Origin: Methanomicrobiales archaeon
GTDB lineage: Archaea; Halobacteriota; Methanomicrobia; Methanomicrobiales; JACTUA01
Reading direction: 5' to 3'
Assembly: GCA_030019205.1 (NCBI GenBank)
Contig: JASEFH010000021.1
Coordinates: forward strand, 1-45,764
DNA length: 45,764 nt
This document shows, piece after piece, positions 19,039-43,949 of this stretch. A program made the position numbers and the translations under genes. The notes beneath the pieces were generated by a model that was not told the DNA's origin, did no database searches, and saw nothing but the letters and a program-made list of their open reading frames with translations. Numbering within the stretch: the stretch's first letter is position 1; each line of letters starts with the position of its first letter.

Positions 19039-21387
19039 TCAATCCCGCACGATCCAGGCCGCCACTTCCTTCTCGTGGTCGACGTAGTGTTCACCGCTCA
19101 CGTCTATTATCACTCTGTCTATTGTTCCGCCTGTGAAGTGGAACGGTGCGGAGTAGTCCGGCGACACCGGGGACCCGCTGTCCCTTCCGACACAGAGCCC
19201 GTCGCCGGTGAGACCGAAAAAGCCGGGCTGCGTCTTGATCCGTCCCTGTCCCACCTTATCCATGTCCACGTAGAGCGTGAGGGTACCCAGGGCGCTCTTC
19301 GTCTCCGTATCCTCTCCGTCCCTGGCGAATTCCGCGGTGAAGACGTGCCGCCCGGCAGGCACGGGATCGCCAGAGGAGATCTTCTGGACATCGTCACCGA
19401 GCCAGTTGTAAACGTAGTGCAGTCGTCCGTCGGCGATATACAGGCTGTGGCCTCCGCCCACCCCCCCGTGGGCGAACAGCACGCCCTGCGCATCCCGTGA
19501 ATCGATCGTCACACCGGCCGCGATGGTGTAGGAGCGCCCCCGAATGTTGACGGCGACGGACTCGGGAACTTCGGCGGTGCCCGGGTAGTAGACATAGCGG
19601 TTCCTGGGTCGGGAAGGCTGGGGCCGGGGCGTGGAGATGATCTCCAGCGCGCTGCGGTCATCGAGCGGCATGCCGTTGTAGACCCCTGCATAGTAGAACC
19701 AGAGCCCCTTGAGGAGCTCGAGCATGTCCCGGTTCTGGTCCGCCAGGTTATGCATCTGGGCCCGGTCGTCTTTCAGGTTGTAGAGCTCCCAGACGTCGTG
19801 CCCGAAGTTGCTCCAGCCGGAGAGAGGCGGGTGGACGGTGTTTGCCAGCCAGCCCTGGTGGTATATCGCCCTCTGGCCGAGCATCGCGTAGAACTGGGTA
19901 TCCCGCCCCGGCGCATCGGGATCGTCGAAGGAGGGTGTAAAGCTCTCTCCCTCGATCGGGCTCTGGGTATAGCCCTTCAGCACCTTCGGCGGTTCGATGC
20001 CCAGCAGCTCGTAGAGTGTCGGGACGATGTCCACGGCGTGGATGTACTGGTGGCGTATCTCCCCCCGGGCTTTGATGCCGCGGGGCCAGGCGATAAGGCA
20101 CATATCCGCGAGCCCCCCCTCGTAGCCGGCAAACCGCTTCCAGTACGGGAAAGGCGTGTCGAACGCCCACGCCCAGCCGCTGCAGTAGTGGTTGTACGCC
20201 CGGGGACCGCCGAGCTCGTCGATGAAGGGCAGATTCGCCTCGACCGTATCGGGCACGTTGTTGAAGAACTTGTTCTCGTTGAACGAGCCGCTCGGACCGC
20301 CCTCGGCGCTGGCCCCGTTGTCGGAGACGACAACGATGATCGTGTTGTCCAGCTGGCCGGACTCTTCGAGATAGTCGAGGATCCTCCCGATCTGGGCATC
20401 TGTGTAGGTGACAAACCCGGCGTACACCTCCGCCATGCGAATGAAGAGCTTCTTTTCGTCCTCGTTCAGCGAGTCCCAGGGAGGCACGAAGTCGAGGGCG
20501 GGCCAGGGCTGGCCATCCGGCCCGCTCGTTCCCGGCTCGCCGTGCGGATTGATGGGCGAGAGCTCGGTATTTTCGGGAAGGAGACCCATCCTCTTCTGGT
20601 TCTCCAGGATCTCCTCGCGGATCTTCTCGTAACCCGCGTCGAACCGCCCCCTGTATTTATCCGCCCACTCCTTGAAGACGTGGTGCGGGGCATGGGCGCA
20701 ACCGGGGCAGAAGTACATGAACCAGGGCTTCTCCGGGGCGATTACCTTCGAGTCGCGGATGAACTCGATCGCTTTATCGGAGATGTCCCTGGAGAAATGA
20801 TAGCCCTCGTCCGGACGGTAGGGCTGATCCATGGGGTGGTTGTCGTAGACCAGATCCGGGTACCACTGGTTGGTCTCCCCGCCCAGGAACCCGTAGAATC
20901 GCTCGAATCCCCGCCCGAGGGGCCAGCGCCCCTTCCACGCGGACATGTCGGTCTCTTCTCCCGGCGTTAAGTGCCACTTGCCGATGGCATACGTGTTCCA
21001 GCCCCTCTCGTTCAGCACCTCGGAGATGAACCCGTTCTCGAACGGGATGCGGGCGCTGAGTCCGGGAAAACCGGCGGACGCCTCCGTGATGCAGGCCATG
21101 TTGTTGCTGGTGGCGTTGCGGCCCGTGAGCAGGCTTGAACGGGTGGGCGAACAGAGCGCTGTCGTATGGAAATTGCTGTAGCGTATGCCCATATCGGCAA
21201 TCCGCTTCATGGTGGGTGTCTCGATCGGCCCGCCGAAGACGTCCATGGCGCCGTAGCCCACGTCGTCCCAGACGATCATCAATACATTGGGGGCCTCTTC
21301 CGGAGCCTGCGGCTGGATGTAGGGCTCCCAGTCGGGCATGGAATTCCGGATGTCGATATCGATTGATCCACTCCATTTTTCAGGCAT
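19039..21387 (-). CDS. Arylsulfatase, Cys-type (formylglycine-dependent)
   Basis: The 782-aa sulfatase has VLMIVWDDVGYGAMDVFGGP (Asp 41 and 42 are metal ligands), CSPTRSSLLTGR with the modifiable Cys at 79 (C-x-P-x-R), VVVSDNGASAEGGPSGSFNE for the late metal-binding Asp-Asn, and WYITS-like substrate-side segments. About 200 C-terminal residues form a beta-rich domain. The active Cys must be converted to formylglycine; the radical SAM enzyme at 23492 is the obvious candidate. The absence of a signal peptide indicates cytosolic hydrolysis of sulfate esters. Length and layout resemble large AtsA-type arylsulfatases. GGAGA before ATG 21387 and a TATA box at 21441 support the start. Confidence 0.92.
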   Translation of the reverse strand: MPEKWSGSIDIDIRNSMPDWEPYIQPQAPEEAPNVLMIVWDDVGYGAMDVFGGPIETPTMKRIADMGIRYSNFHTTALCSPTRSSLLTGRNATSNNMACITEASAGFPGLSARIPFENGFISEVLNERGWNTYAIGKWHLTPGEETDMSAWKGRWPLGRGFERFYGFLGGETNQWYPDLVYDNHPMDQPYRPDEGYHFSRDISDKAIEFIRDSKVIAPEKPWFMYFCPGCAHAPHHVFKEWADKYRGRFDAGYEKIREEILENQKRMGLLPENTELSPINPHGEPGTSGPDGQPWPALDFVPPWDSLNEDEKKLFIRMAEVYAGFVTYTDAQIGRILDYLEESGQLDNTIIVVVSDNGASAEGGPSGSFNENKFFNNVPDTVEANLPFIDELGGPRAYNHYCSGWAWAFDTPFPYWKRFAGYEGGLADMCLIAWPRGIKARGEIRHQYIHAVDIVPTLYELLGIEPPKVLKGYTQSPIEGESFTPSFDDPDAPGRDTQFYAMLGQRAIYHQGWLANTVHPPLSGWSNFGHDVWELYNLKDDRAQMHNLADQNRDMLELLKGLWFYYAGVYNGMPLDDRSALEIISTPRPQPSRPRNRYVYYPGTAEVPESVAVNIRGRSYTIAAGVTIDSRDAQGVLFAHGGVGGGHSLYIADGRLHYVYNWLGDDVQKISSGDPVPAGRHVFTAEFARDGEDTETKSALGTLTLYVDMDKVGQGRIKTQPGFFGLTGDGLCVGRDSGSPVSPDYSAPFHFTGGTIDRVIIDVSGEHYVDHEKEVAAWIVRD

Positions 21388-23258: not shown

Positions 23259-23491
23259 TTAATTGTACGCGTGGGTCGATGAGCGGGCAGCCGGCGCAAT
23301 CATGCACATACGTGGGTGAAGATGCGGAACGGGCAGAAGCACAATATCCCAAACCTTTATGAATGGTGGGAGCAGTAAAGCGGGCAATCGCGGGATACGA
23401 TAAGAGATGGCACAGCGGTGCATCCCGGAGCATTCCTATTAGTTCTATCGGTTCCGATAACGCCGGTCAAAACAGAGAGAAGGATCGATCC

Positions 23492-24796
23492 ATGAACAGG
23501 CATACTGGTGCAGCGCCTCCCGCCTTCCATGTCATGGCAAAACCGACGGGGGCACAGTGCAATCTCGACTGTGCCTACTGTTTCTTCTTAAAAAAGGAGA
23601 GACTGTATCCGGATAGCAATTTCCGGATGACGGATGCGGTGATGGAGGCGTACATCCGCCAGACCATCGAGGGGCACCGCGTCCCCCGTGTGACGATCGC
23701 CTGGCAGGGGGGAGAGCCGACCCTGATGGGGCTCGATTTCTACCGGCGTTCTGTGGACGTGCAGAAAAAGTACAGAAAGCCCGGGACCCTCATCGAAAAC
23801 ACATTCCAGACAAACGGCGTCCTCCTGGATGACGCATGGTGCCAGTTCTTCCATGACAACCATTTCCTGATCGGCCTGAGCATGGACGGTCCTGCTGAAC
23901 TCCACGATATCTATCGGAGGGATAAAAGCGGCCATGGAACGTTCGAACGGGTTCTCGACGCCGCCCTTCTCCTCCAGAAGCATAAAGTGGAGTTCAATAT
24001 CCTCTGTACGGTCAACCGCAGGAACGCCGACCACCCGTTGGATGTGTACCGGTTCTTCCGCGATGAACTCGGGGTGCAGTACATCCAGTTCATCCCCATC
24101 GTGGAGCGGAACAGCGAGAGGGGGTACCAGGAAGGGAATACAGTGACCGATCGGTCCGTCCGCCCCGACCAATGGGGACGGTTCCTGATCGGGATCTTCG
24201 ACGAATGGATCCGGCGGGACGTAGGAAGAATGTTTGTCCTGAACTTCGACGGGGCGCTCGCGGGCTGGCTCGGGATGGCGGGGACGGTCTGCATCTTTGG
24301 GCCCACCTGCGGTCTCGGGGTGGCGCTCGAGCACAACGGGGACCTGTACTCGTGTGACCACTTTGTCGAGCCCCGATACTACCTGGGGAATATTCTCCAA
24401 ACGCCCCTGACAGAGCTCGTGGCCTCGGAGAAGCAGCGAGCGTTCGGGAGGGCCAAGAGAGATACGCTTCCCCTGTACTGCCGGGAGTGCGAGTTCATGG
24501 CCATCTGCAACGGGGAGTGCCCAAAGAACCGCTTCCTGGAGACCCCCAAGGGCGAGCCGGGGCTGAATTACCTCTGCGAAGGCTACCGGGCGTTCTTCAC
24601 TCACGCCGACCGGCCCATGCGGATCATGGCAGACCTGCTGCGGCGGGGAAGGTTCGCCGACGAGGTGCTGCAGATTCTTGCAGCAGAGGAGAGATCACGT
24701 AAATCCGGATCGGTCAGGGTAGGCCGGAATGACCCCTGCCCCTGCGGGAGCGGACTGAAGTTCAAGAAGTGCTGCGGACAGGCCCCTGGGCGGTGA
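23492..24796 (+). CDS. Anaerobic sulfatase-maturating radical SAM enzyme with C-terminal SEC-C motif
   Basis: The 434-aa product has CNLDCAYC (Cys 23, 27, 30; CxxxCxxC for the SAM-binding cluster), [16 protein letters not shown] (the G-G-E motif), and a SPASM-type C-terminal cysteine set: [20 protein letters not shown] and [19 protein letters not shown]. This is the layout of anSME, which oxidises the sulfatase Cys or Ser to formylglycine without oxygen. The last 20 residues ([16 protein letters not shown]) form a SEC-C zinc motif, an extra domain also attached to some anSMEs. The likely target is the arylsulfatase at 19039-21387 (CSPTR). ATG 23492 follows GAGAGAAGGA and is preferred to the upstream start at 23363. 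Confidence 0.92.
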
Positions 24797-24930: not shown

Positions 24931-24963
24931 CCTTTGTCATATTCGGACGCTGGTGGAGCCTTA

Positions 24964-25314
24964 ATGGCCGAATATTCGCATGATAACTTCTGGGTTGCCG
25001 TTATCGCCGGATGGATCCTGATGCTTATCATCGACCTTTTCATTCCTGTTGTAGGGCCGTTTGTAGGAGGATTTGCCGCCGGCTACATCGCACGGGGTGG
25101 CCCGTGGAATGGCGGAGTTGCAGGTCTGCTCTCGGGTATCCTTGGGGGTGTCATCGTCGCGATCCTCGTCCTCGTCGGGGCCACGCTATTTCTGGGAGTG
25201 CTGGGGTTCCTCGGGGGGTTCTTCTTCGGGACGTTATTGATCGTATTTCTCTTCATCTTCCACGGGATCCTCGCGTTCATCGGCGGCGCGATAGCAGGGG
25301 CGTTGAGGATGTAA
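24964..25314 (+). CDS. DUF5518-type small membrane protein (second copy)
   Basis: The 116-aa product reads WVAVIAGWILMLIIDLFIPV, VGGFAAGYIARGGPWNGGVA, GLLSGILGGVIVAILVLVGA, and a third hydrophobic part of Phe/Gly/Leu. It aligns with the copy at 3716-4096 from the first residues, including MA- at the start, which fixes ATG 24964. Three to four membrane spans with glycine-zipper-like faces. Function unknown. It stands alone between the radical SAM gene and the ion channel gene. Confidence 0.82.
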   Translation: MAEYSHDNFWVAVIAGWILMLIIDLFIPVVGPFVGGFAAGYIARGGPWNGGVAGLLSGILGGVIVAILVLVGATLFLGVLGFLGGFFFGTLLIVFLFIFHGILAFIGGAIAGALRM

Positions 25315-25434
25315 GGGCTCCAGAATCTAGGAGAGTGCCGAGTGGGCGATGCAGGCGCATCCCGAGCAGTACGGTGTGCACGGGACTGCAGAAAAGCTGG
25401 TGTGTTCACGATGAAGGGGAGGGTGCGTGTTCGA

Positions 25435-27312
25435 ATGAGCAATCGGCGAGGCAGTCACTCCAGCGGAGCCATCGCCTTCCTTATCGTGTCATCCGTTCTC
25501 CTGATCGGGTGTGCATGCGGGCAGGCCCAGGAGGCTGGAACAGTCCAGGTGCTGACCGGATATCTGGCGCCGGAACAGGGGTTGTTCTACGACCTGCCCG
25601 ATCTCCAGGAGGGGCAGACCTTGTATGTCTACGCCGAGGGGACGGGCGGCAACCTGGACCCCTTCATCGCCCTCTCGGATCCGAACCTCACTCCCTTCCA
25701 GGCCCGGAATGCCTTCGTTGCCGAGGTGAACCGATCGATCGCCGAGGGGCGCGATCCGCTCCTCGCCCTTCCGGAGGTTGCAGACCGGTTCTTCCTCGCC
25801 TGGGATGACGACAGCGGTGAGGGCTATGCTGCCGCCCTGGAGTACCGCATACCCGAGAGCGGGGATTACCGGCTGGTCATCGCCAGCACACCAACCAGAG
25901 AGACCTTCGGTGAGTACCGGCTCCTGGTCGGCCTGGATGCCCCGCAGGTGCTCACCGGGGAAGCGGAACAAGGCGGTGCACCCATCGCGGTCCTGAATAC
26001 CACCCTCACCCCGCCCCGTCTGGCCATCACAGAGGCGAGCGGCTCACTGACGGAGATCCGCACATCGACCTTCTACACCCTCTACCCGGTGGAGGGCGGC
26101 GACACCTTCTATGCCTCCATCGAGGCAACCTCGGGCAACCTGATCCCCGTGATGGTCCTGCGGGATTTCGGCGGCAAACCCCTCTCCGCCGGCATTCCGG
26201 AGGGCGGGTCGAGAAGCGCTGCCCTGCAGTACACCTTTGAAGATGCCAGCAGCAACAACCGCCTGGAGATCTTCGGCCGATCTGTCAACGGGACGAATAC
26301 GACTGGCGATTACCGGCTCCTGGCAGGGCTCAATGCCCCTGAGGTCCTGACGGGTTCGGCGAATGAGACCGCCCTGCCGCTGCTCCAGCAGCCCATCGAG
26401 GTGAAGGTCGGGGTGGAGCTGGACCAGATCACCACGGTGGACCAGCAGGCCGAGCACTTCGGCGTTGTGGCGAACATCTGGATGGAGTGGACAGACCCAA
26501 ACCTTGCCTTCAGCCCCGATGCGTGCCACTGCAATTTCAAGCTCTACCGCAGCATCGAAAGTTTCGTCGCAGCGGAAGGAGAGCGGTGGCCGGAGTTCAC
26601 CCTCTTCAACCAGCAGGAGCGGCGCTGGACCCAGAACCAGCTCATTCTGGTGGAGCCGGACGGCACGGCCACCTACTTCGAGCGCTTCTGGGTGATCCTG
26701 CAGGCACCGGACTTCAACTTCCGGCAATACCCGTTCGATGAACAGGACTTCTTCATTCGGATCGACTCTCTCTATCCCGAGGGTTTCTATGTGTTCGCCC
26801 CCTGGCCGGAGAAGACCGCCATCGGCGGGCAGCTCGGGGAGGAGGAGTGGTACATCACCAGTTCCGATGCCAACGTGACGAGCATCCAGCTGACGAACAT
26901 CAACTCCCGGTACTCCTTCCACTTCAAGATGGCGCGGCATCTCACCTTCTACATCCTCCGCATCCTCGTCCCCATCCTTATCATCATTCTCCTGACCTAC
27001 GTCACGTTCCTCCTCAAGGACTACGGAAAACGGGCCGATGTCGCCGCTGCGAACCTTCTGCTCTTCATCGCGTTCAACTTCACCATCGCCGGCGATCTCC
27101 CCCGTCTGGGATACCTGACCTTCCTCGATACGATTCTGATCACGACATTTGTGATCACCGCCCTCACCGTCGGGTATAACCTCTACCTCCGCTGGCTGGC
27201 GACAGAAAAGGAGAAGGAGATCGCGGAGAGGATCGATCGGGCGGCAATCTGGGGGTATCCGCTTGCCTATATCACCGTAATTGCTGTAATTGCTCTCGCT
27301 TTCTATTTATGA
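25435..27312 (+). CDS. Pentameric ligand-gated ion channel (Cys-loop receptor superfamily) with duplicated N-terminal module
   Basis: The 625-aa product has a signal-like helix (GAIAFLIVSSVLLIGCACGQ). Two similar beta-rich modules follow (about 39-180 and 200-315), each closing with GEYRLLVGLDAPQVLTG or GDYRLLAGLNAPEVLTG. The ligand-binding domain (about 320-502) starts IEVKVGVELDQITTVDQQAE and carries FNFRQYPFDEQDFFIRI, the conserved F-x-x-x-P-F-D-x-Q region without Cys-loop cysteines. M1 (503-527) has the conserved Pro (ILRILVPILIIILL); M2 (about 534-552) is followed by AGDLPRLGYLTFLD; M3 and M4 (607-625) complete the pore. Family members are homopentameric channels gated by an extracellular ligand. 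GGGGAGGG precedes ATG 25435; 25411 is an alternative start. Ligand and ion selectivity are unknown. Confidence 0.88.
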   Translation: MSNRRGSHSSGAIAFLIVSSVLLIGCACGQAQEAGTVQVLTGYLAPEQGLFYDLPDLQEGQTLYVYAEGTGGNLDPFIALSDPNLTPFQARNAFVAEVNRSIAEGRDPLLALPEVADRFFLAWDDDSGEGYAAALEYRIPESGDYRLVIASTPTRETFGEYRLLVGLDAPQVLTGEAEQGGAPIAVLNTTLTPPRLAITEASGSLTEIRTSTFYTLYPVEGGDTFYASIEATSGNLIPVMVLRDFGGKPLSAGIPEGGSRSAALQYTFEDASSNNRLEIFGRSVNGTNTTGDYRLLAGLNAPEVLTGSANETALPLLQQPIEVKVGVELDQITTVDQQAEHFGVVANIWMEWTDPNLAFSPDACHCNFKLYRSIESFVAAEGERWPEFTLFNQQERRWTQNQLILVEPDGTATYFERFWVILQAPDFNFRQYPFDEQDFFIRIDSLYPEGFYVFAPWPEKTAIGGQLGEEEWYITSSDANVTSIQLTNINSRYSFHFKMARHLTFYILRILVPILIIILLTYVTFLLKDYGKRADVAAANLLLFIAFNFTIAGDLPRLGYLTFLDTILITTFVITALTVGYNLYLRWLATEKEKEIAERIDRAAIWGYPLAYITVIAVIALAFYL

Positions 27313-29974: not shown

Positions 29975-32764
29975 ATGTCATCCGCAAATAACGCGCCTGC
30001 AACGGAGGAAGGACGGCGGCTCCTCGAGGTCTATCAGCAGAACGCGCCCTGGCGCCGCTGGGGTCCGTACCTGAGCGAACGGCAATGGGGAACGGTGCGG
30101 GAGGATTATAGCGAAGATGGAAACTCCTGGGCTTATTTCCCCCACGATCATGCCCGATCCCGGGCCTACCTCTGGGGAGAGGACGGGATCGCGGGCCTCT
30201 CGGACGACTCCCAGCAGCTCTGCTTTGCCCTGGCACTCTGGAACGGCGCCGATCCTTTCCTCAAAGAGCGGCTCTTCGGCCTTACGAATGCCGAGGGAAA
30301 CCACGGCGAGGACGTGAAGGAGTACTATTACTACCTGGACAATACGCCGACCCATGCCTACATGAAATACCTCTACAAGTATCCCCAGGCGGCATTCCCG
30401 TACGACGATCTGCTGGAGACGAACAGGAACCGCTCACGGGAAGAACCGGAGTACGAGCTGATCGATACCGGTATCTTCGATAACGATCGCTACTTCGATG
30501 TCTTCGTGGAGTATGCGAAAGAGTCTCCCGAGGATATCCTGATCCAGATCACCGTGTACAACCGGGGGCCGGAAGAGGCCGTCCTGCACCTGCTGCCGAC
30601 GCTGTGGTTCCGCAACACCTGGTGGCTCGAGAAGGGCACGAAAAGACCGCTCCTGAAACAGATCGAAGGGCCCCCTGGCACCAGCGTCATCCAGGCCAGC
30701 CATCCGGCACTCGGCGACCGCTACCTCCACTGCGAGGGTGCTCCCGACCTGCTCTTCACCGAGAACGAGACCAACACGGAACGCATCTTCGGCACTCCGA
30801 ACGCCAGCCCTTACGTGAAGGACGGCATCAACGAGTATGTTGTTTCCCATCGAATTTCGGCGGTGAATCCGGCGCGGACGGGAACGAAGGCCGCGGCCTA
30901 CATCCCGCTGACCCTTGCAGGCGGGGAGAACCGGGTGGTGCGGCTGCGGCTGAACGAACGTCCCCCTTCCACGGCAGCCGAGGGTGAATCTCTCTTCGGG
31001 AGCCGGTTCGAGGAGATCCTGAGCGCCCGGAAGGAGGATGCGGATGCGTTCTACGACAACCTGACCCCTCCATCGGTCAGCCCGGATGCGGCCGGCGTGA
31101 TGCGCCAGGCCCTCGCCGGCATGCTCTGGACCAAACAGTACTACTTCTACGACCTGGACCGCTGGCTCCGCCAGCATGGCTCCAATATGGCCATGGGCAG
31201 CAAACGGCCTGTCCGCAACAACGAGTGGTTCCACATGTACAATGCCGACATCATCTCGATGCCGGACAAGTGGGAGTATCCCTGGTATGCCGCCTGGGAC
31301 CTCGCCTTCCATCTGGCCGCCTTTACGATGATCGACCCGGGCTTTGCCAAGCAGCAGCTGGAGCTGATCCTGCACGAACGTTACCTCCACCCGAACGGCC
31401 AGATTCCCGCCTACGAGTGGAACTTCAGCGATGTCAACCCCCCTGTGCACGCCTGGGCCGCCCTGTTCATCTACCGCGTCGAGGAGGAACTATTCGGCAC
31501 GGGAGATGTCCGGTTCCTCGAGAGCGTCTTCCAGAAGCTCCTGATGAACTTCACCTGGTGGGTGAACAGGAAAGATCGTTACGGCCAGAACGTATTCGAA
31601 GGAGGGTTTTTAGGGCTGGACAATATCGGGGTCTTCGATCGCAGCGCCACCATCCCATCGGGAGGCTACCTGGAACAGTCCGACGGTACCGCATGGATGG
31701 CGCTCTACTGCCAGAACATGCTTGAGATCGCATCGACTCTTGCCGTTCACAATTCGGTCTACGAGGAACTCGCCATCAAGTTCTACGAGCACTTCCTCTG
31801 GATTGCATCGGCCATGAACCGCATGGGCGAGAACCAGGAGGGGATGTGGGACGAGTGGGACGGGTTCTTCTACGACCTCCTGCACCTGCCGGACGGAAGC
31901 GCCACCCGCCTCAAAGTGCGGACCCTGGTGGGTCTCCTCCCCCTATGCGCCAGTACCGTCTTCGAGCCGGATGTGCTCCGCGGAATGCCCGCCTTCCTGG
32001 AGCGCGCAAAGCGGTTCAATCAGAGCCATCCGCTGCTCACCGCCAACATCACGTCGCCGGCCCGGGCCGGGTTCCAGAATCGCCGCCTTCTCTCCCTGGT
32101 AAACGAGGAGAGGCTGCGCCGGATCCTCGCGCGCATGCTGGACGAGAGTGAGTTCCTCAGCGACTTCGGGATCCGCTCTATCTCCCGGGCCCATGCCGAG
32201 AACCCGTACACCTTCATCCTGGACGGCCAGGAGTTCGATGTCACCTACCTGCCGGCGGAATCCAACACGAATATGTTTGGCGGGAACTCGAACTGGCGGG
32301 GACCCATCTGGTTCCCGATGAACCTCCTGATCATCCGGAGCCTGCTCAGCCTGTATGCATTCTACGGAGACAGTTTCACCATCGAATGCCCCACAGGCTC
32401 TGGGCGGTGGATGAACCTCTATGAGGTGGGCGAAGAGATCAAGCGCCGGCTCGAACGCATCTTCCTCAGGGACGAGACCGGGCGACGCCCGGTCTTCGGA
32501 TCTGTATCCAAGTTCCAGGAGGACCCGCACTGGCGGGATTACATCCTGTTCTACGAGTACTTCCACGGCGACAACGGTGCCGGCCTGGGCGCGAGCCACC
32601 AGACGGGCTGGACCGGTATCATCGCGCGGCTCACGCAGTTATTTGCGTATATGACTCCGGAAATGCTCCTGACACCGGAAGGCAGGCAGCTCGGGTATAT
32701 GAAAAGGGCGGGTGCTACTCCAGCGGCTGCGGAGGCGCCGCCGACGGCTACGACTGCTCGATGA
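29975..32764 (+). CDS. GH63/MGH1-like glucosidase
   Basis: The 929-aa cytosolic enzyme has an N-terminal beta-rich domain with RRWGPYLSERQWGTVREDYS and EDGNSWAYFPHDHARSRAYL, the opening of a large glucosidase group in bacteria and archaea. A C-terminal (alpha/alpha)6 domain follows. Candidate catalytic residues are Asp about 442 in YPWYAAWDLAFHLAAF and Glu about 481 in IPAYEWNFSDVNPPVHAW. Later NTNMFGGNSNWRGPIWFPMN and ASHQTGWTGIIARL are also conserved blocks. The family acts on alpha-glucosides, trehalose-like or mannosylglycerate-type compatible solutes; the substrate is unknown here. Length is normal. The aquaporin remnant converges on its 3' end. Confidence 0.88.
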   Translation: MSSANNAPATEEGRRLLEVYQQNAPWRRWGPYLSERQWGTVREDYSEDGNSWAYFPHDHARSRAYLWGEDGIAGLSDDSQQLCFALALWNGADPFLKERLFGLTNAEGNHGEDVKEYYYYLDNTPTHAYMKYLYKYPQAAFPYDDLLETNRNRSREEPEYELIDTGIFDNDRYFDVFVEYAKESPEDILIQITVYNRGPEEAVLHLLPTLWFRNTWWLEKGTKRPLLKQIEGPPGTSVIQASHPALGDRYLHCEGAPDLLFTENETNTERIFGTPNASPYVKDGINEYVVSHRISAVNPARTGTKAAAYIPLTLAGGENRVVRLRLNERPPSTAAEGESLFGSRFEEILSARKEDADAFYDNLTPPSVSPDAAGVMRQALAGMLWTKQYYFYDLDRWLRQHGSNMAMGSKRPVRNNEWFHMYNADIISMPDKWEYPWYAAWDLAFHLAAFTMIDPGFAKQQLELILHERYLHPNGQIPAYEWNFSDVNPPVHAWAALFIYRVEEELFGTGDVRFLESVFQKLLMNFTWWVNRKDRYGQNVFEGGFLGLDNIGVFDRSATIPSGGYLEQSDGTAWMALYCQNMLEIASTLAVHNSVYEELAIKFYEHFLWIASAMNRMGENQEGMWDEWDGFFYDLLHLPDGSATRLKVRTLVGLLPLCASTVFEPDVLRGMPAFLERAKRFNQSHPLLTANITSPARAGFQNRRLLSLVNEERLRRILARMLDESEFLSDFGIRSISRAHAENPYTFILDGQEFDVTYLPAESNTNMFGGNSNWRGPIWFPMNLLIIRSLLSLYAFYGDSFTIECPTGSGRWMNLYEVGEEIKRRLERIFLRDETGRRPVFGSVSKFQEDPHWRDYILFYEYFHGDNGAGLGASHQTGWTGIIARLTQLFAYMTPEMLLTPEGRQLGYMKRAGATPAAAEAPPTATTAR

Positions 32765-38747: not shown

Positions 38748-39140
38748 AGGGCCGGAGATGGGCGAATTTCATCGCCGGCTTGCGCTGGGCATGCTCGCAG
38801 CTGACCCACGGGGATGGGACGGCCACGCGGGGAGTCGCTTCTATCGGGACCGCTGTGGCCGAGGCGATGACGGGGGCATGGTCGACCTGCATCTCACTCC
38901 GGCACCGGCCCTGCATTCCGTCGGGGGTGGAAAGGAGACTATGGATCCTCCCCGCACGGCGGGGCCACGGCTCCCATGCGGCATGGCAATGCGATTGGAG
39001 GCATATAGAACCCAATAAGCCTTTCTTTCACTTATTAAATGCCTTTAATGGAGTTTTTATCCAAACGAAACATTTCAATACCTATATCGATCGAATGGAC
39101 AATTTAATTGCAGCCGTACTCCCTCGATGGAGACTCCGCC
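38748..39140. other. Spacer with an A/T-rich stretch before the helicase gene
   Basis: The left part is GC-rich without a supported gene. About 39010-39110 is strikingly A/T-rich compared with both sides. It contains CTATATC at 39082-39088, a candidate TATA box for the helicase gene. Confidence 0.5.
39082..39088 (+). promoter_or_regulatory. Candidate TATA box of the helicase-nuclease gene
   Basis: CTATATC in the A/T-rich patch; transcription predicted near 39112 and a leader of about 29 bases. Confidence 0.4.
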
Positions 39141-42100
39141 ATGGCGATACCCGAAGCCCAGATCGATGCCATCCGCCGGCGGCTGCTGGACCTCACCCAG
39201 CGCAACCGCCTCCTGAACTACCGCCCCTCGAAGGCGCGCACCATACCCGTGGTAGACGAGAATCCCCGGGAGGTGTACGACATCCTGGTGCTGCGGGAGA
39301 AGGCGATGCGGTTCCACCCGCGGGAGAGAGGGGAGCCAGCCGCCGATGCAGCGGCTGCCGGGACCGGGAAGGGCGCGGGGGAAGCCTCTACCGCCCCGGC
39401 GGAGGACGAGGAGCCCTGGCAGGCGATCGCAGAGGGGGATACGCCGCCGCACCAGACCGACACGCTTCTCGAGACGCCGCTCTCCGCCGACATCCTTCGG
39501 GAGCGGCTCTTCACCGTTCACAACCAGGCGAGAACAGCCCTCGAAGAGCAGGGCTACAGTATCCTCTACCTCGCCCTGGGATTCCTGGAGTACACCGATA
39601 CCGCCGGCACCGTCCGCTCCGCCCGGGCTCCCGTGCTGCTCGTCCCCGTCGAGCTGGAGCGCATCCGCGCGGGCGGGACGTATACGCTCCGCTGGACGGG
39701 GGAGGAGATCCTCATGAACCTCTCCCTGGCAGAGCGGCTCAGGGAGCTGGATGTGCTCCTGCCCGAGTTCGAGATGCCGGAGGAGAAGGCAGGCATCGAC
39801 GCCTACCTGACCGCCGTGCGGGACGCGATCGTGCACAAACCCTCCTGGAGGCTGCTCGCCGGGATCTGCCTGGACTTCTTCAGCTTCACCAAGTTCGTCA
39901 TGTTCCGCGACCTGGACCCGCAGACCTGGCCCGAAGGGCGGTCCCCGGCCGACCACCCCCTGCTGAACGCCGTCCTGAACCCCTCCGAAGAGTACGATGC
40001 CGCGGACGAGTTCGACGAGAAAACGGTGGACGAGCGGCTTCCGGGGCACGCGGTCTTCCACGTGGTGGACGCCGACTCGTCCCAGATCGCCGTCATCGAA
40101 GCGGTGAACCGCGGGGCGAACCTGGTGGTGGAGGGGCCGCCGGGGACGGGCAAGTCCCAGACCATCACCAACGTCATCGCCGAGAGCCTCGCCCGGGGAA
40201 AGAGCGTCCTCTTCGTGAGCGAGAAGATGGCGGCGCTGCAGGTGGTGAAGAGCCGCCTGGACCGCGCCGGCCTGGGGGAGTTCTGCCTGGAGCTGCACAG
40301 CCGCAAGACGAACAAGCGGAAGGTGCTCGAGGAGCTGCGCCGCACCCTGGAGACCGATCTTCTGCGCGAGGAGTCCTTCGAGGCCGAGATCGCGCGGCTG
40401 GAAGGACTCAAAGAGGAGTTGAACAGCTACGTGCGGGCGCTGGCCGAACCGATCGGCGGGCGGGGACTCTCGCCGTTCCAGGCCTTCTGCCTGCATGAAC
40501 GGGCGCGGCAGCAATTCGAGCGGGCAGGAAGGAGCATGGCACGGATCTCCCTGGCGGATCCGGAGCGCATGGCGCCGCCCGAATGGGACGCCGCGGTCGC
40601 CGCCCTGGAGGGGCTGCAGGGCATCCTGCCCCTCGTCCGCCCTATCCAGGAGAACCCCTGGCGGGGCTGCACCCCGGGGCTGATCCTACCCCCGGACCTG
40701 GACCGCCTGCGGGATCTGCTGGAAGAGAGCGCGGGCGAGATAGAGCGGATCCGGGAGGCGGCGGCGCTCCTGGCCGAACTGTCGGGCTGCGCCGTGCCCT
40801 CGACACCGGGGGATCTTGCACGGGCGCGCACGGCCGCCGCCCTCGTCGCCTCGGCGCCGCCGCTCGAGCGGGACGTCATTCTGCACCCGGCCTGGAGGAG
40901 CCCGCCCGATTCGGTGGAGCCGCTCATGGCGCTGGTCCGGCGGTACCGGGAGGAGCGCGATGCAGTCCTGGCACGGTTCCGCCCGGAGATCCTGGATCGG
41001 GACGTGGATGCCCTGCTGGCCGAGTACCGGGCCCAGTCGTCTGCGTTCCTGAAGACGCTGCGATCGGGCTACCGTGCGGTCCGGCGGGAGGTGGGCAGCC
41101 TCTACGCCGGTGCCGTCCCCTCAGACGACGCCCGTATTCTGGCGGACCTGGCGGCGGCATCGGAGTGCCGCCGGCTGCGGGATGCGGTGCGGCAGGCGGA
41201 GCCGCAGGGGAGGGCCTTCTTTGGCGCCCTGTGGATGGAGGAGGAGAGCGACTGTGCCAGTCTGCAGGCATTCGCCGACTGGATGGCAAAATTCCGGCTC
41301 CAGCTGGCGCAGGGCGTGCTCACGCCCCGGGCGATCGGCATCCTCTACAGCGGGGTGCCGCGGGGAGAGATAGAGGGCTGCTCCCGCCTGCTGGGCCAGG
41401 CGGAGGAGCGGCTCGCCGCCGCGCTGGATGCCCTCTTCGGTACGCTGGGAACGGACGCGGAGCGCAGTCTCGGGACGCCCTGCGAGCGGGCGGCGTTCGC
41501 GGACCTCGAGTCCCGGATCCGTTCGTGGATATCCCGCCTTGACGACCTGCCGCGCTGGTCGCAGTACGTCGCATTCCGGGAGGAGGCCCTGGCCACTCCC
41601 GCCGCACCCCTCGTGGGGGCGGTCGAGGAGGATGGCATCGAGCCCGACGATCTGGTCCCGACGTTCGAAGGCAGCTACGCCGAAGGGCTGCTGAAGGCGG
41701 CATTCACCGAGAGGCCGCTCCTCGCGCAGTTCGTCGGGGAGCGGCACGAGAACCGCATCCGGCGGTTCGCGGCGTCGGATCAGGAGAGCCTCCACTGGAA
41801 CCAGTGCCGCGCCATGCTCCGCCTCTACCGCAGCCGCCCCCGGATCTGCGGCGGGGCCTCGAAGGAATCCGAGGCGGGGATCCTGCTGCGGGAGTTCAAC
41901 CGCAAACGGGGGCACATGCCCATCCGCCGTCTGATGAGCCGGGCCGGAGGGCTCATCCAGAAGATCAAACCCTGTTTCATGATGAGCCCGCTCTCGATCG
42001 CCCAGTTCCTGGACCCGCGATCGGTCTGCTTCGACCTCATCGTCTTCGACGAGGCCAGCCAGGTCCGTCCCGAGGATGCCCTGGGGGCGTTCCTGCGGGG

Positions 42101-43949
42101 GCGGCAGGTCGTCGTCATGGGGGACTCGCGCCAGCTGCCGCCGACCGCCTTCTTCGACCGCCTGGTAGAAGACGAAGAGGACGACGGGGCGGACGAGATC
42201 GCCGAGAGCATCCTCAACCTCTGCCGGCGGAGTTTTCCCCGCAAGATGCTCCGCTGGCACTACCGCAGCCGCCACGAGTCGCTCATCGCCGTCTCGAACC
42301 GGGAGTTCTACGACAACCGTCTCTACGTCTACCCGTCGGCAGTGGACCGGGCGGAGCACCTGGGGCTGCACCTCGTCCATCTGCCGCAGACCGTCTACGA
42401 CCGGGGGCGGAGCTCCGCCAACCGCGGGGAAGCCCGGGCGGTAGCGGAGGCGGTGCTGGACCACTACCGCACCCGTCCGGGAAAGAGCCTCATGGTGGGC
42501 ACCTTCAACGTCCGACAGCAGACCGCGATCCGCGAAGAGGTGGAGCGGCTGCTGCGGCAGAACCCGCAGGTCGAGGACGCGATGAAGGGCATCGAGCCCT
42601 TCGACGTCAAGAACCTGGAGACGATCCAGGGCGACGAGCGCGACGTGGTCTTTATCAGCGTCGGGTTCGGCTTCGACGAGCGGGGGAAGCTCTCCCTCAA
42701 CTTCGGGCCCCTCAACCAGGCGGGCGGGGAGCGGCGCCTGAACGTGCTCATCACCCGGGCCCGCGAGAAGTGCGTGGTCTTCTCCAACTTCCGCGGGCGG
42801 GACCTCGCTCTGGACGAGAACGCACCCACAGGGCTGCAGGTCCTGAAGCAGTTCCTGGAGTATGCCGAGACGGGCTCGCTGGCCCCGTACGGGGATACCG
42901 GGGCGGATGGAGAGACCCCCCTGGAGACGTCCGTGTACGAGTTCCTGTTCGAGAACGGCCACACCCTGCGGAAACAGGTGGGCTGCGCCGGCTTCCGCGT
43001 GGACCTGGCGGTCGTCGATCCCGACTCCCCCGGGACCTACCTCCTCGGGATCGTGTGCGACGGCGCACGCTACCACACGTCCCGGGTGGCCCGCGACCGC
43101 GACCGCCTGCGGCAGCAGATCCTGGAGGGGCTGGGCTGGCGGATCCACCGCGTCTGGTCCCCCGACTGGTACCGCAACCGGAAGGAGTGCGAGAGGAGAT
43201 TGCTGGAGGCGATCGAGGCGGCGAAGCAACAGAAAGAGCACCCGCCCGAGCGATCCCCGGAACCGGCCGCCCTGCCCCCGCCCGCCATGACGATGAGGAG
43301 CGGCATGCCGGAAACCGGAACGATGGAGGAGAGCGTCCCCCCCTATACGATCTGCGACGATCCGGGGCTGAGCCCTTCGGAAGATATCGTGTCCATTCCC
43401 GAGGGCGATCTGGTCCGGGCGGTCGGGAGGATCGCGGAGGTGGAGGGGCCGGTGCACGTGGAGACCGCGATCCAGCGCATCCGCACCGCCTGCGGCACGA
43501 AAAGGCTCGGGAAGAAGGCCCGGGATGCGGTGCTGGCGGCGATAGCGCGAGCGGAGGCGGAGGGCGCCGTGCGGCTGCGGGGAGAGTTCCTCTGGCCGCC
43601 AACCGGCCCGAATGCGCTGCTGCGGCGGCGGGACGCCGCCACGGGGATCAAACTCTACCAGATCTGCGACGAGGAGATTCGGGCGGGGATCGAACTGGTG
43701 CTGCAGCATCAGTTCGCCACGGCGGAGGAGGACCTGATCGCCCGCACGGCGAAGCTGCTCGGCATCCGCTCGGTCCGGAACGGCGTCGCGGAGCGGATGG
43801 AGGCGGTGATCGGGTCGATGGTCAAGGAGGGTGTGCTGGAGAAGGGGCAAAACGGCACGATCCAGCGTGCAGCCCCCGAACCGCCGGCGCCGCCTGCCGC
43901 GGAGAACACCCCCGATCGCCGCGATAGCGATGACGGGATCAGGCCGTGA
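39141..43949 (+). CDS. DUF4011 / superfamily 1 helicase / PD-(D/E)xK-like nuclease protein (Hhe-type defence candidate)
   Basis: The 1602-aa product opens with the DUF4011 signature (IRRRLLDLTQRNRLLNYRPS). The ATPase core has Walker A GPPGTGKSQT (332-341) and Walker B IVFDEASQ (Asp about 970), with VVVMGDSRQLPPTAFF, WHYRSRHESLIAVSNREFYD and LNVLITRAREKCVVFSNFRG for the remaining SF1 (Upf1-like) motifs. From about 1255 a Vsr/MTES_1575-type nuclease fold follows (VGCAGFRVDLAVVD with Asp about 1288, then LLGIVCDGARYHTS). About 1410-1470 is a DUF3320-like winged helix. This order is that of the single-gene anti-phage system I recall as Hhe (DUF4011-helicase-Vsr). It is probably cytosolic and acts on invading DNA. 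ATG 39141 is chosen by family start. It is intact and very GC-rich, and lies 1.2 kb from the CRISPR array. Confidence 0.87.
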   Translation: MAIPEAQIDAIRRRLLDLTQRNRLLNYRPSKARTIPVVDENPREVYDILVLREKAMRFHPRERGEPAADAAAAGTGKGAGEASTAPAEDEEPWQAIAEGDTPPHQTDTLLETPLSADILRERLFTVHNQARTALEEQGYSILYLALGFLEYTDTAGTVRSARAPVLLVPVELERIRAGGTYTLRWTGEEILMNLSLAERLRELDVLLPEFEMPEEKAGIDAYLTAVRDAIVHKPSWRLLAGICLDFFSFTKFVMFRDLDPQTWPEGRSPADHPLLNAVLNPSEEYDAADEFDEKTVDERLPGHAVFHVVDADSSQIAVIEAVNRGANLVVEGPPGTGKSQTITNVIAESLARGKSVLFVSEKMAALQVVKSRLDRAGLGEFCLELHSRKTNKRKVLEELRRTLETDLLREESFEAEIARLEGLKEELNSYVRALAEPIGGRGLSPFQAFCLHERARQQFERAGRSMARISLADPERMAPPEWDAAVAALEGLQGILPLVRPIQENPWRGCTPGLILPPDLDRLRDLLEESAGEIERIREAAALLAELSGCAVPSTPGDLARARTAAALVASAPPLERDVILHPAWRSPPDSVEPLMALVRRYREERDAVLARFRPEILDRDVDALLAEYRAQSSAFLKTLRSGYRAVRREVGSLYAGAVPSDDARILADLAAASECRRLRDAVRQAEPQGRAFFGALWMEEESDCASLQAFADWMAKFRLQLAQGVLTPRAIGILYSGVPRGEIEGCSRLLGQAEERLAAALDALFGTLGTDAERSLGTPCERAAFADLESRIRSWISRLDDLPRWSQYVAFREEALATPAAPLVGAVEEDGIEPDDLVPTFEGSYAEGLLKAAFTERPLLAQFVGERHENRIRRFAASDQESLHWNQCRAMLRLYRSRPRICGGASKESEAGILLREFNRKRGHMPIRRLMSRAGGLIQKIKPCFMMSPLSIAQFLDPRSVCFDLIVFDEASQVRPEDALGAFLRGRQVVVMGDSRQLPPTAFFDRLVEDEEDDGADEIAESILNLCRRSFPRKMLRWHYRSRHESLIAVSNREFYDNRLYVYPSAVDRAEHLGLHLVHLPQTVYDRGRSSANRGEARAVAEAVLDHYRTRPGKSLMVGTFNVRQQTAIREEVERLLRQNPQVEDAMKGIEPFDVKNLETIQGDERDVVFISVGFGFDERGKLSLNFGPLNQAGGERRLNVLITRAREKCVVFSNFRGRDLALDENAPTGLQVLKQFLEYAETGSLAPYGDTGADGETPLETSVYEFLFENGHTLRKQVGCAGFRVDLAVVDPDSPGTYLLGIVCDGARYHTSRVARDRDRLRQQILEGLGWRIHRVWSPDWYRNRKECERRLLEAIEAAKQQKEHPPERSPEPAALPPPAMTMRSGMPETGTMEESVPPYTICDDPGLSPSEDIVSIPEGDLVRAVGRIAEVEGPVHVETAIQRIRTACGTKRLGKKARDAVLAAIARAEAEGAVRLRGEFLWPPTGPNALLRRRDAATGIKLYQICDEEIRAGIELVLQHQFATAEEDLIARTAKLLGIRSVRNGVAERMEAVIGSMVKEGVLEKGQNGTIQRAAPEPPAPPAAENTPDRRDSDDGIRP

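Follow-up and report, generated by a model that had tools for sequence, protein, structure and literature searches.

DeCLIC is the only characterized channel that carries two lobes, NTD1 and NTD2, ahead of the canonical extracellular domain (ECD) of the pentameric ligand-gated ion channels (pLGICs) (PMC12664993). Its inhibition by calcium, its calcium sites, and its cation currents have been published (PMC12664993, PMC9897478), and depletion of calcium activates it (PMC12664993). The bacterial channel sTeLIC (PDB 6fl9) has no such lobes, and its PDB entry gives alkaline pH as the gating signal. The occurrence of pLGICs in archaea is likewise known (PMC549065, PMC4795631). Those of Methanosarcina likewise carry added N-terminal sensor domains, but these are MCP-N and Cache domains rather than jelly-roll lobes (PMC549065), and ten further archaeal genera have been reported (PMC4795631). 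The statement in a preliminary description of the present locus that pLGICs are rarely reported in archaea needs to be corrected accordingly.

The window considered here, meaning the whole 45,764-nucleotide stretch of Methanomicrobiales DNA that was analyzed, contains an intact open reading frame on the forward strand at positions 25435 to 27312, with 625 codons followed by a stop and with no internal stop or frameshift; translation could alternatively start at an in-frame ATG at 25411. Base composition is of the coding type. The product matches the Pfam family Neur_chan_LBD (PF02931) at residues 317 to 488 with 46.1 bits (cut-off 26), and its best match among all PDB sequences is DeCLIC (phmmer, 6v4a, E = 2.3e-135), to which it aligns end to end (residues 19 to 624 versus 21 to 636 of 6v4a) at about 39% identity. 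These two results bear out the earlier reading of the protein as an archaeal Cys-loop receptor homologue, and the motifs on which that reading had been based are all in place: the M1 proline (P513, which is invariant), the F-x-x-x-P-F-D-x-Q region (FRQYPFDEQ, residues 429 to 437), and LPRLGYLT (residues 555 to 562). The narrower models LGIC_1 (NCBIfam NF033918, 91.3 bits) and TIGR00860 (85.3 bits) score under their curated cut-offs of 500 and 280, respectively, and the protein is thus related to these models yet lies outside them. DeCLIC had been mentioned as one of a few bacterial channels bearing large N-terminal additions; it does bear one, but it is in fact a full-length homologue of the window protein, with the same order and size of parts (signal peptide, NTD1, NTD2, ECD, and four transmembrane helices; PDB 6v4a, 6v4s, 7q3g, 9ev8). 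The presence of a DeCLIC-type pLGIC in an archaeon of the Methanomicrobiales is therefore supported (Table 1), and it extends a known channel type to an archaeal group rather than adding a new architecture. Contamination of the window was judged unlikely because the GC contents of gene (0.61) and window (0.60) agree and because orthologues occur in single-contig genomes. A lipoprotein anchor was also considered, given a lipobox-like LIGC in the signal peptide, and was rejected because relatives lack it: they have a hydrophobic stretch ahead of NTD1 but no conserved cysteine.

Table 1. Features of the channel gene and its upstream neighbor (window positions; residue numbers are those of the window protein)
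Feature	Position	Strand	Basis and remarks
DUF5518 membrane protein, upstream of channel	24934..25314	+	Pfam DUF5518, 43.3 bits; paralogue at L002
N-terminal signal peptide (residues 1-31)	25435..25527	+	sequence; exports N-terminal half
NTD1 lobe (residues 35-182)	25537..25980	+	jelly-roll with two inserted helices, ends in GEYRLLVGLDAPQVLTG; AF2, Foldseek
Span with equivalents of DeCLIC Sites 1 and 2 (D75, P76, D125, D126, G128, G130, Y131)	25657..25827	+	alignment
NTD2 lobe (residues 183-315)	25981..26379	+	second jelly-roll, ends in GDYRLLAGLNAPEVLTG; HHalign, profile match
Canonical extracellular domain, ECD (residues 316-500)	26380..26934	+	Pfam Neur_chan_LBD
E340 (DeCLIC E347), calcium Site 3, beta1-beta2 loop	26452..26454	+	alignment
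P425-F427 (DeCLIC P434 and F436), Site 3 carbonyl ligands	26707..26715	+	alignment; invariant
Loop F QLGEEE, residues 466-471 (DeCLIC Q476-E481), Sites 3 and 4	26830..26847	+	alignment
Transmembrane domain M1-M4 (residues 501-625)	26935..27309	+	AF2 helices 503-526, 530-554, 560-590, 594-624
M2 pore helix K532-D554 (2' D535, 9' L542, 16' F549)	27028..27096	+	alignment to DeCLIC

Two similar beta-rich modules had been noticed in the N-terminal half, and profile comparison confirms that they are homologous. Profiles of NTD1 and NTD2 built from 16 relatives align to each other with an HHalign probability of 99.3% (E = 1.4e-20), and the motif repeated near their ends reads GEYRLLVGLDAPQVLTG at residues 159 to 175 and GDYRLLAGLNAPEVLTG at residues 291 to 307. 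The NTD1 profile matches DeCLIC with E = 2.5e-36, and that of NTD2 matches DeCLIC residues 185 to 324 with E = 6e-30. Because the duplication is common to DeCLIC, it must be old, and because the NTD1 and NTD2 lobes of DeCLIC are the two modules seen here, this architecture was already known and solved.

Structure prediction agrees with this picture. In an AlphaFold2 (AF2) monomer built on a 20-sequence alignment (mean pLDDT 76, pTM 0.56), NTD1 with two inserted helices is followed by NTD2, the ECD, and four long helices, so that the ECD and four membrane helices expected of a pLGIC are both there. The best 20 Foldseek matches of the full model are all DeCLIC chains, most of them aligned over the full length (E = 6.7e-55 for the full-length match); the overall TM-score is only about 0.5 (rmsd about 12 Å) because the placement of domains relative to one another in the monomer model is unreliable. 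Modeled alone, NTD1 reached a pLDDT of 88.6 and a pTM of 0.83, and its best Foldseek match was the crystal structure of the DeCLIC NTD (6v4b, E = 8.6e-17, TM-score 0.80).

After DeCLIC, the NTD1 model matched PliG lysozyme inhibitors and Tk-SP, GOLD, collagen-binding, and PPC domains, the same group of folds as was described for DeCLIC by its authors (PMC12664993). The PPC, collagenase collagen-binding, and Tk-SP domains (Foldseek E about 1e-4 to 1e-6) are found in secreted proteases, not in channels, and lie below the Pfam cut-off by sequence. Membership of NTD1 in PPC (PF04151) was rejected at 16.4 bits, under the gathering cut-off of 25.9, and the PPC model weakly matches 3 of 16 NTD1 members at E ≤ 1. 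Such resemblances to lysozyme-inhibitor, collagen-binding, and PPC folds could be taken to mean that the two lobes work as adhesin-like or wall-binding domains, tethering the channel to the S-layer or a partner protein instead of sensing calcium. We regard this as very improbable, since some of these jelly-rolls have a calcium site overlapping that of NTD1, Tk-SP and collagenase domains are calcium binders too (one of them uses the same site; PMC12664993), no match to a Pfam family reaches its cut-off, and NTD2 is poorly conserved. A further N-terminal domain that seemed to be present in one relative (L014, 877 codons) was dismissed as a reading beyond the gene rather than protein.

The calcium ligands of DeCLIC Sites 1 to 4 were taken from PMC12664993 and transferred by alignment, and every named ligand is present in the window protein. 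The NTD1 correspondences (window = DeCLIC) are D75 = D76, P76 = P77, D125 = D123, D126 = D124, G128 = G126, G130 = G128, and Y131 = Y129, and they include all of the Site 1 ligands (D75, P76, D125, D126, and Y131). In the ECD, the ligands of Sites 3 and 4 (E340, P425, F427, and Q466 to E471) are likewise complete. E340 is invariant in DeCLIC and in 22 aligned NTD-bearing sequences, a set that includes the window protein; P425 and F427 belong to a QAPDF stretch and not to the Pro-loop PFD; and loop F QLGEEE is near-invariant among NTD-bearing relatives. All five acidic side-chain ligands (D75, D125, D126, E340, and E470) are invariant in 22/22 sequences (P = 1.3e-4 when tested among all D/E positions). 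Just 13 of the 148 NTD1 columns are invariant, and D75, P76, D125, and D126 are all among them (chance P = 3.7e-5); some variation, confined to a few of the 22 sequences, is seen at G128, G130, Y131, and Q466. The earlier suggestion that the modules could bind a ligand gating the channel can be narrowed down: NTD1 keeps calcium Site 1, and NTD2 lacks such acids. There, GNLDP of NTD1 has become GNLIP and the WDDD strand is missing, so Site 1 is not expected in this lobe.

The pore also follows DeCLIC closely, with D535 = E547 at the 2' position, L542 = L554 at 9', and F549 = F561 at 16'. The 9' Leu and 16' Phe gate residues are those of DeCLIC, and the 2' position is acidic in both, being D here, E in DeCLIC, and D or E without exception in the relatives; the acidic ring suggests cation selectivity. 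A difference lies in the vestibule, where the constriction residue N405 of DeCLIC is replaced by arginine (R396) and which would therefore differ in the window protein.

Taken together, these data make it probable that the gene encodes a DeCLIC-type homopentameric cation channel that is closed by extracellular Ca2+ and opens when Ca2+ falls. By homology, five subunits would form a cation pore in the archaeal cell membrane, with the two jelly-roll lobes and the ECD of each facing outward and a ring of Asp at 2' selecting cations. Extracellular Ca2+ would occupy NTD1 as well as the interface between ECD subunits, where E340 would act together with loop F, and with Ca2+ in place the gates formed by 9' Leu and 16' Phe would stay closed; a fall in Ca2+, and possibly also in pH, would loosen the lobes and open the pore to cations. 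Both the inhibition by calcium and the direction of gating are inferred from DeCLIC, and at about 39% identity ligand specificity can change. It is conceivable, though in our judgment unlikely, that a different stimulus (protons, alkaline pH, an amine, or a cell-surface sugar) is the main one to gate the channel and that the calcium sites are structural, stabilizing the lobes and the subunit interface without sensing calcium. The ECD/TMD half is close to proton-gated GLIC and to sTeLIC (6fl9, E = 1e-78), with 42 to 43% identity to the latter in structural alignment, and sTeLIC shares the loop-F QLGEEEW and a near-identical M2 even though it lacks an NTD. Furthermore, structures of DeCLIC in the open state are listed for pH 5, even in the presence of 10 mM Ca2+. 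Against this weigh the activation of DeCLIC itself by calcium depletion (PMC12664993) and the rank of the Site 1 acids among the most conserved NTD positions.

The survey of homologues that the preliminary description had proposed found the NTD form in 27 of 232 Methanomicrobiales genomes, patchily distributed and including two in which contig ends or a frameshift interrupt the gene. Another 25 of the 232 have only short, distant pLGICs; the two forms were sorted by length and alignment coverage. The short ones examined (about 350 aa; family f5, e.g., L016 and L017) share the Pro-loop channel core and belong to the same superfamily, but they have neither the NTD nor the LGEEEW motif and are 20 to 28% identical to the window protein in the aligned part. 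Among 393 genomes across the phylum, the NTD form occurs in only three outside the Methanomicrobiales (G136, G214, and G298). In the family of the window's own genome, that genome is the only one of 11 sampled to have it, and most of the others are incomplete. Other genomes, several of which are single-contig, have full-length relatives at 49 to 70% identity; named relatives come from Methanoculleus, Methanofollis, other Methanomicrobiales MAGs, and one Chloroflexota MAG. No plasmid-borne relatives of the channel were found. In one case (L026/L050) the orthologue lies in two frames, broken between NTD2 and the ECD by a frameshift or an assembly error.

A tree that used only two NTD-bearing bacterial sequences groups the G136 and G214 proteins with that of the Chloroflexota MAG (support 98/93), which hints at lateral transfer. 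A single archaeal clade fits worse and is weakly rejected (AU P = 0.02, a test chosen after the first tree had been seen). The G136 and G214 channels (L034 and L033) sit on MAG contigs of 8 to 11 kb, for which transfer and contamination are both possible.

Unlike DeCLIC, the window protein belongs to an archaeal host without an outer membrane, and its outer part has six N-glycosylation sequons (about 2.4 expected, P = 0.03) versus two in DeCLIC. Most Methanoculleus-type orthologues have 6 to 10 and the Chloroflexota protein none, counts that are weak evidence for an exposed archaeal surface protein. We tentatively suggest, as an unlikely extension of the calcium-gating reading, that the archaeal branch senses calcium between the membrane and the S-layer of Methanomicrobiales and signals when external divalents or a calcium-dependent cell surface are lost, and that the gene was exchanged between archaea and bacteria. 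The literature within reach of our search, which did not extend to subscription papers such as the original DeCLIC paper, contained no genuine pairing of DeCLIC with archaea and no mention of Methanoculleus with ligand-gated ion channels. An archaeal clade with complete calcium sites thus appears to be unreported in the searchable literature. The retention of the calcium ligands by about 30 archaeal orthologues through deep divergence is comparative evidence for a functional site in the NTD, and these proteins, some from single-contig genomes, are new material for structural work and electrophysiology from cells without an outer membrane.

The same genome also carries a ruined second channel copy on contig C5 (G000:C5:17975-18217 and surroundings; L002, 765 to 1960). 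A DUF5518 gene is followed there by pieces of NTD1 and a piece of M4, with frameshifts, a stop, and an internal deletion of about 400 codons that removes the middle of the channel. This DUF5518 gene is 73% identical in DNA to window positions 24985 to 25301, and because it adjoins the decayed channel copy, the DUF5518 gene and the channel were probably copied together, after which one channel decayed. The wreck, together with the patchy occurrence of the gene, raises the question of whether the window copy is itself a nonconducting or decaying remnant without a role. We give this very little credence, as that copy has no stop or frameshift, is coding-type in composition, and retains all gate and ligand residues, while orthologues are intact in many genomes, single-contig ones included.

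No DUF5518 gene was found beside other channel orthologues. A search for an operon partner across the relatives' loci found no conserved neighbor. An upstream AI-2E-like transporter was set aside because it is common to close relatives only, and a sulfatase because it lies within about 7 kb at six loci besides the window (two of these sulfatases being fragments) and elsewhere in other genomes. The window's own large sulfatase (19039-21387, reverse strand) is the only one found in its genome, and close to it lies a radical SAM/SPASM protein with a C-terminal SEC-C motif that resembles anaerobic sulfatase maturases (23363-24796, forward strand). Downstream, also on the forward strand, are a 929-aa GH63/MGH1-like glycoside hydrolase (29975-32764), with a relative also close to the channel at L005 and L048, and a 1613-aa DUF4011/helicase/MTES_1575 nuclease/DUF3320 protein (39108-43949) that matches the PADLOC candidate defense family PDC-S37 (E = 0) and is also Hhe-like.
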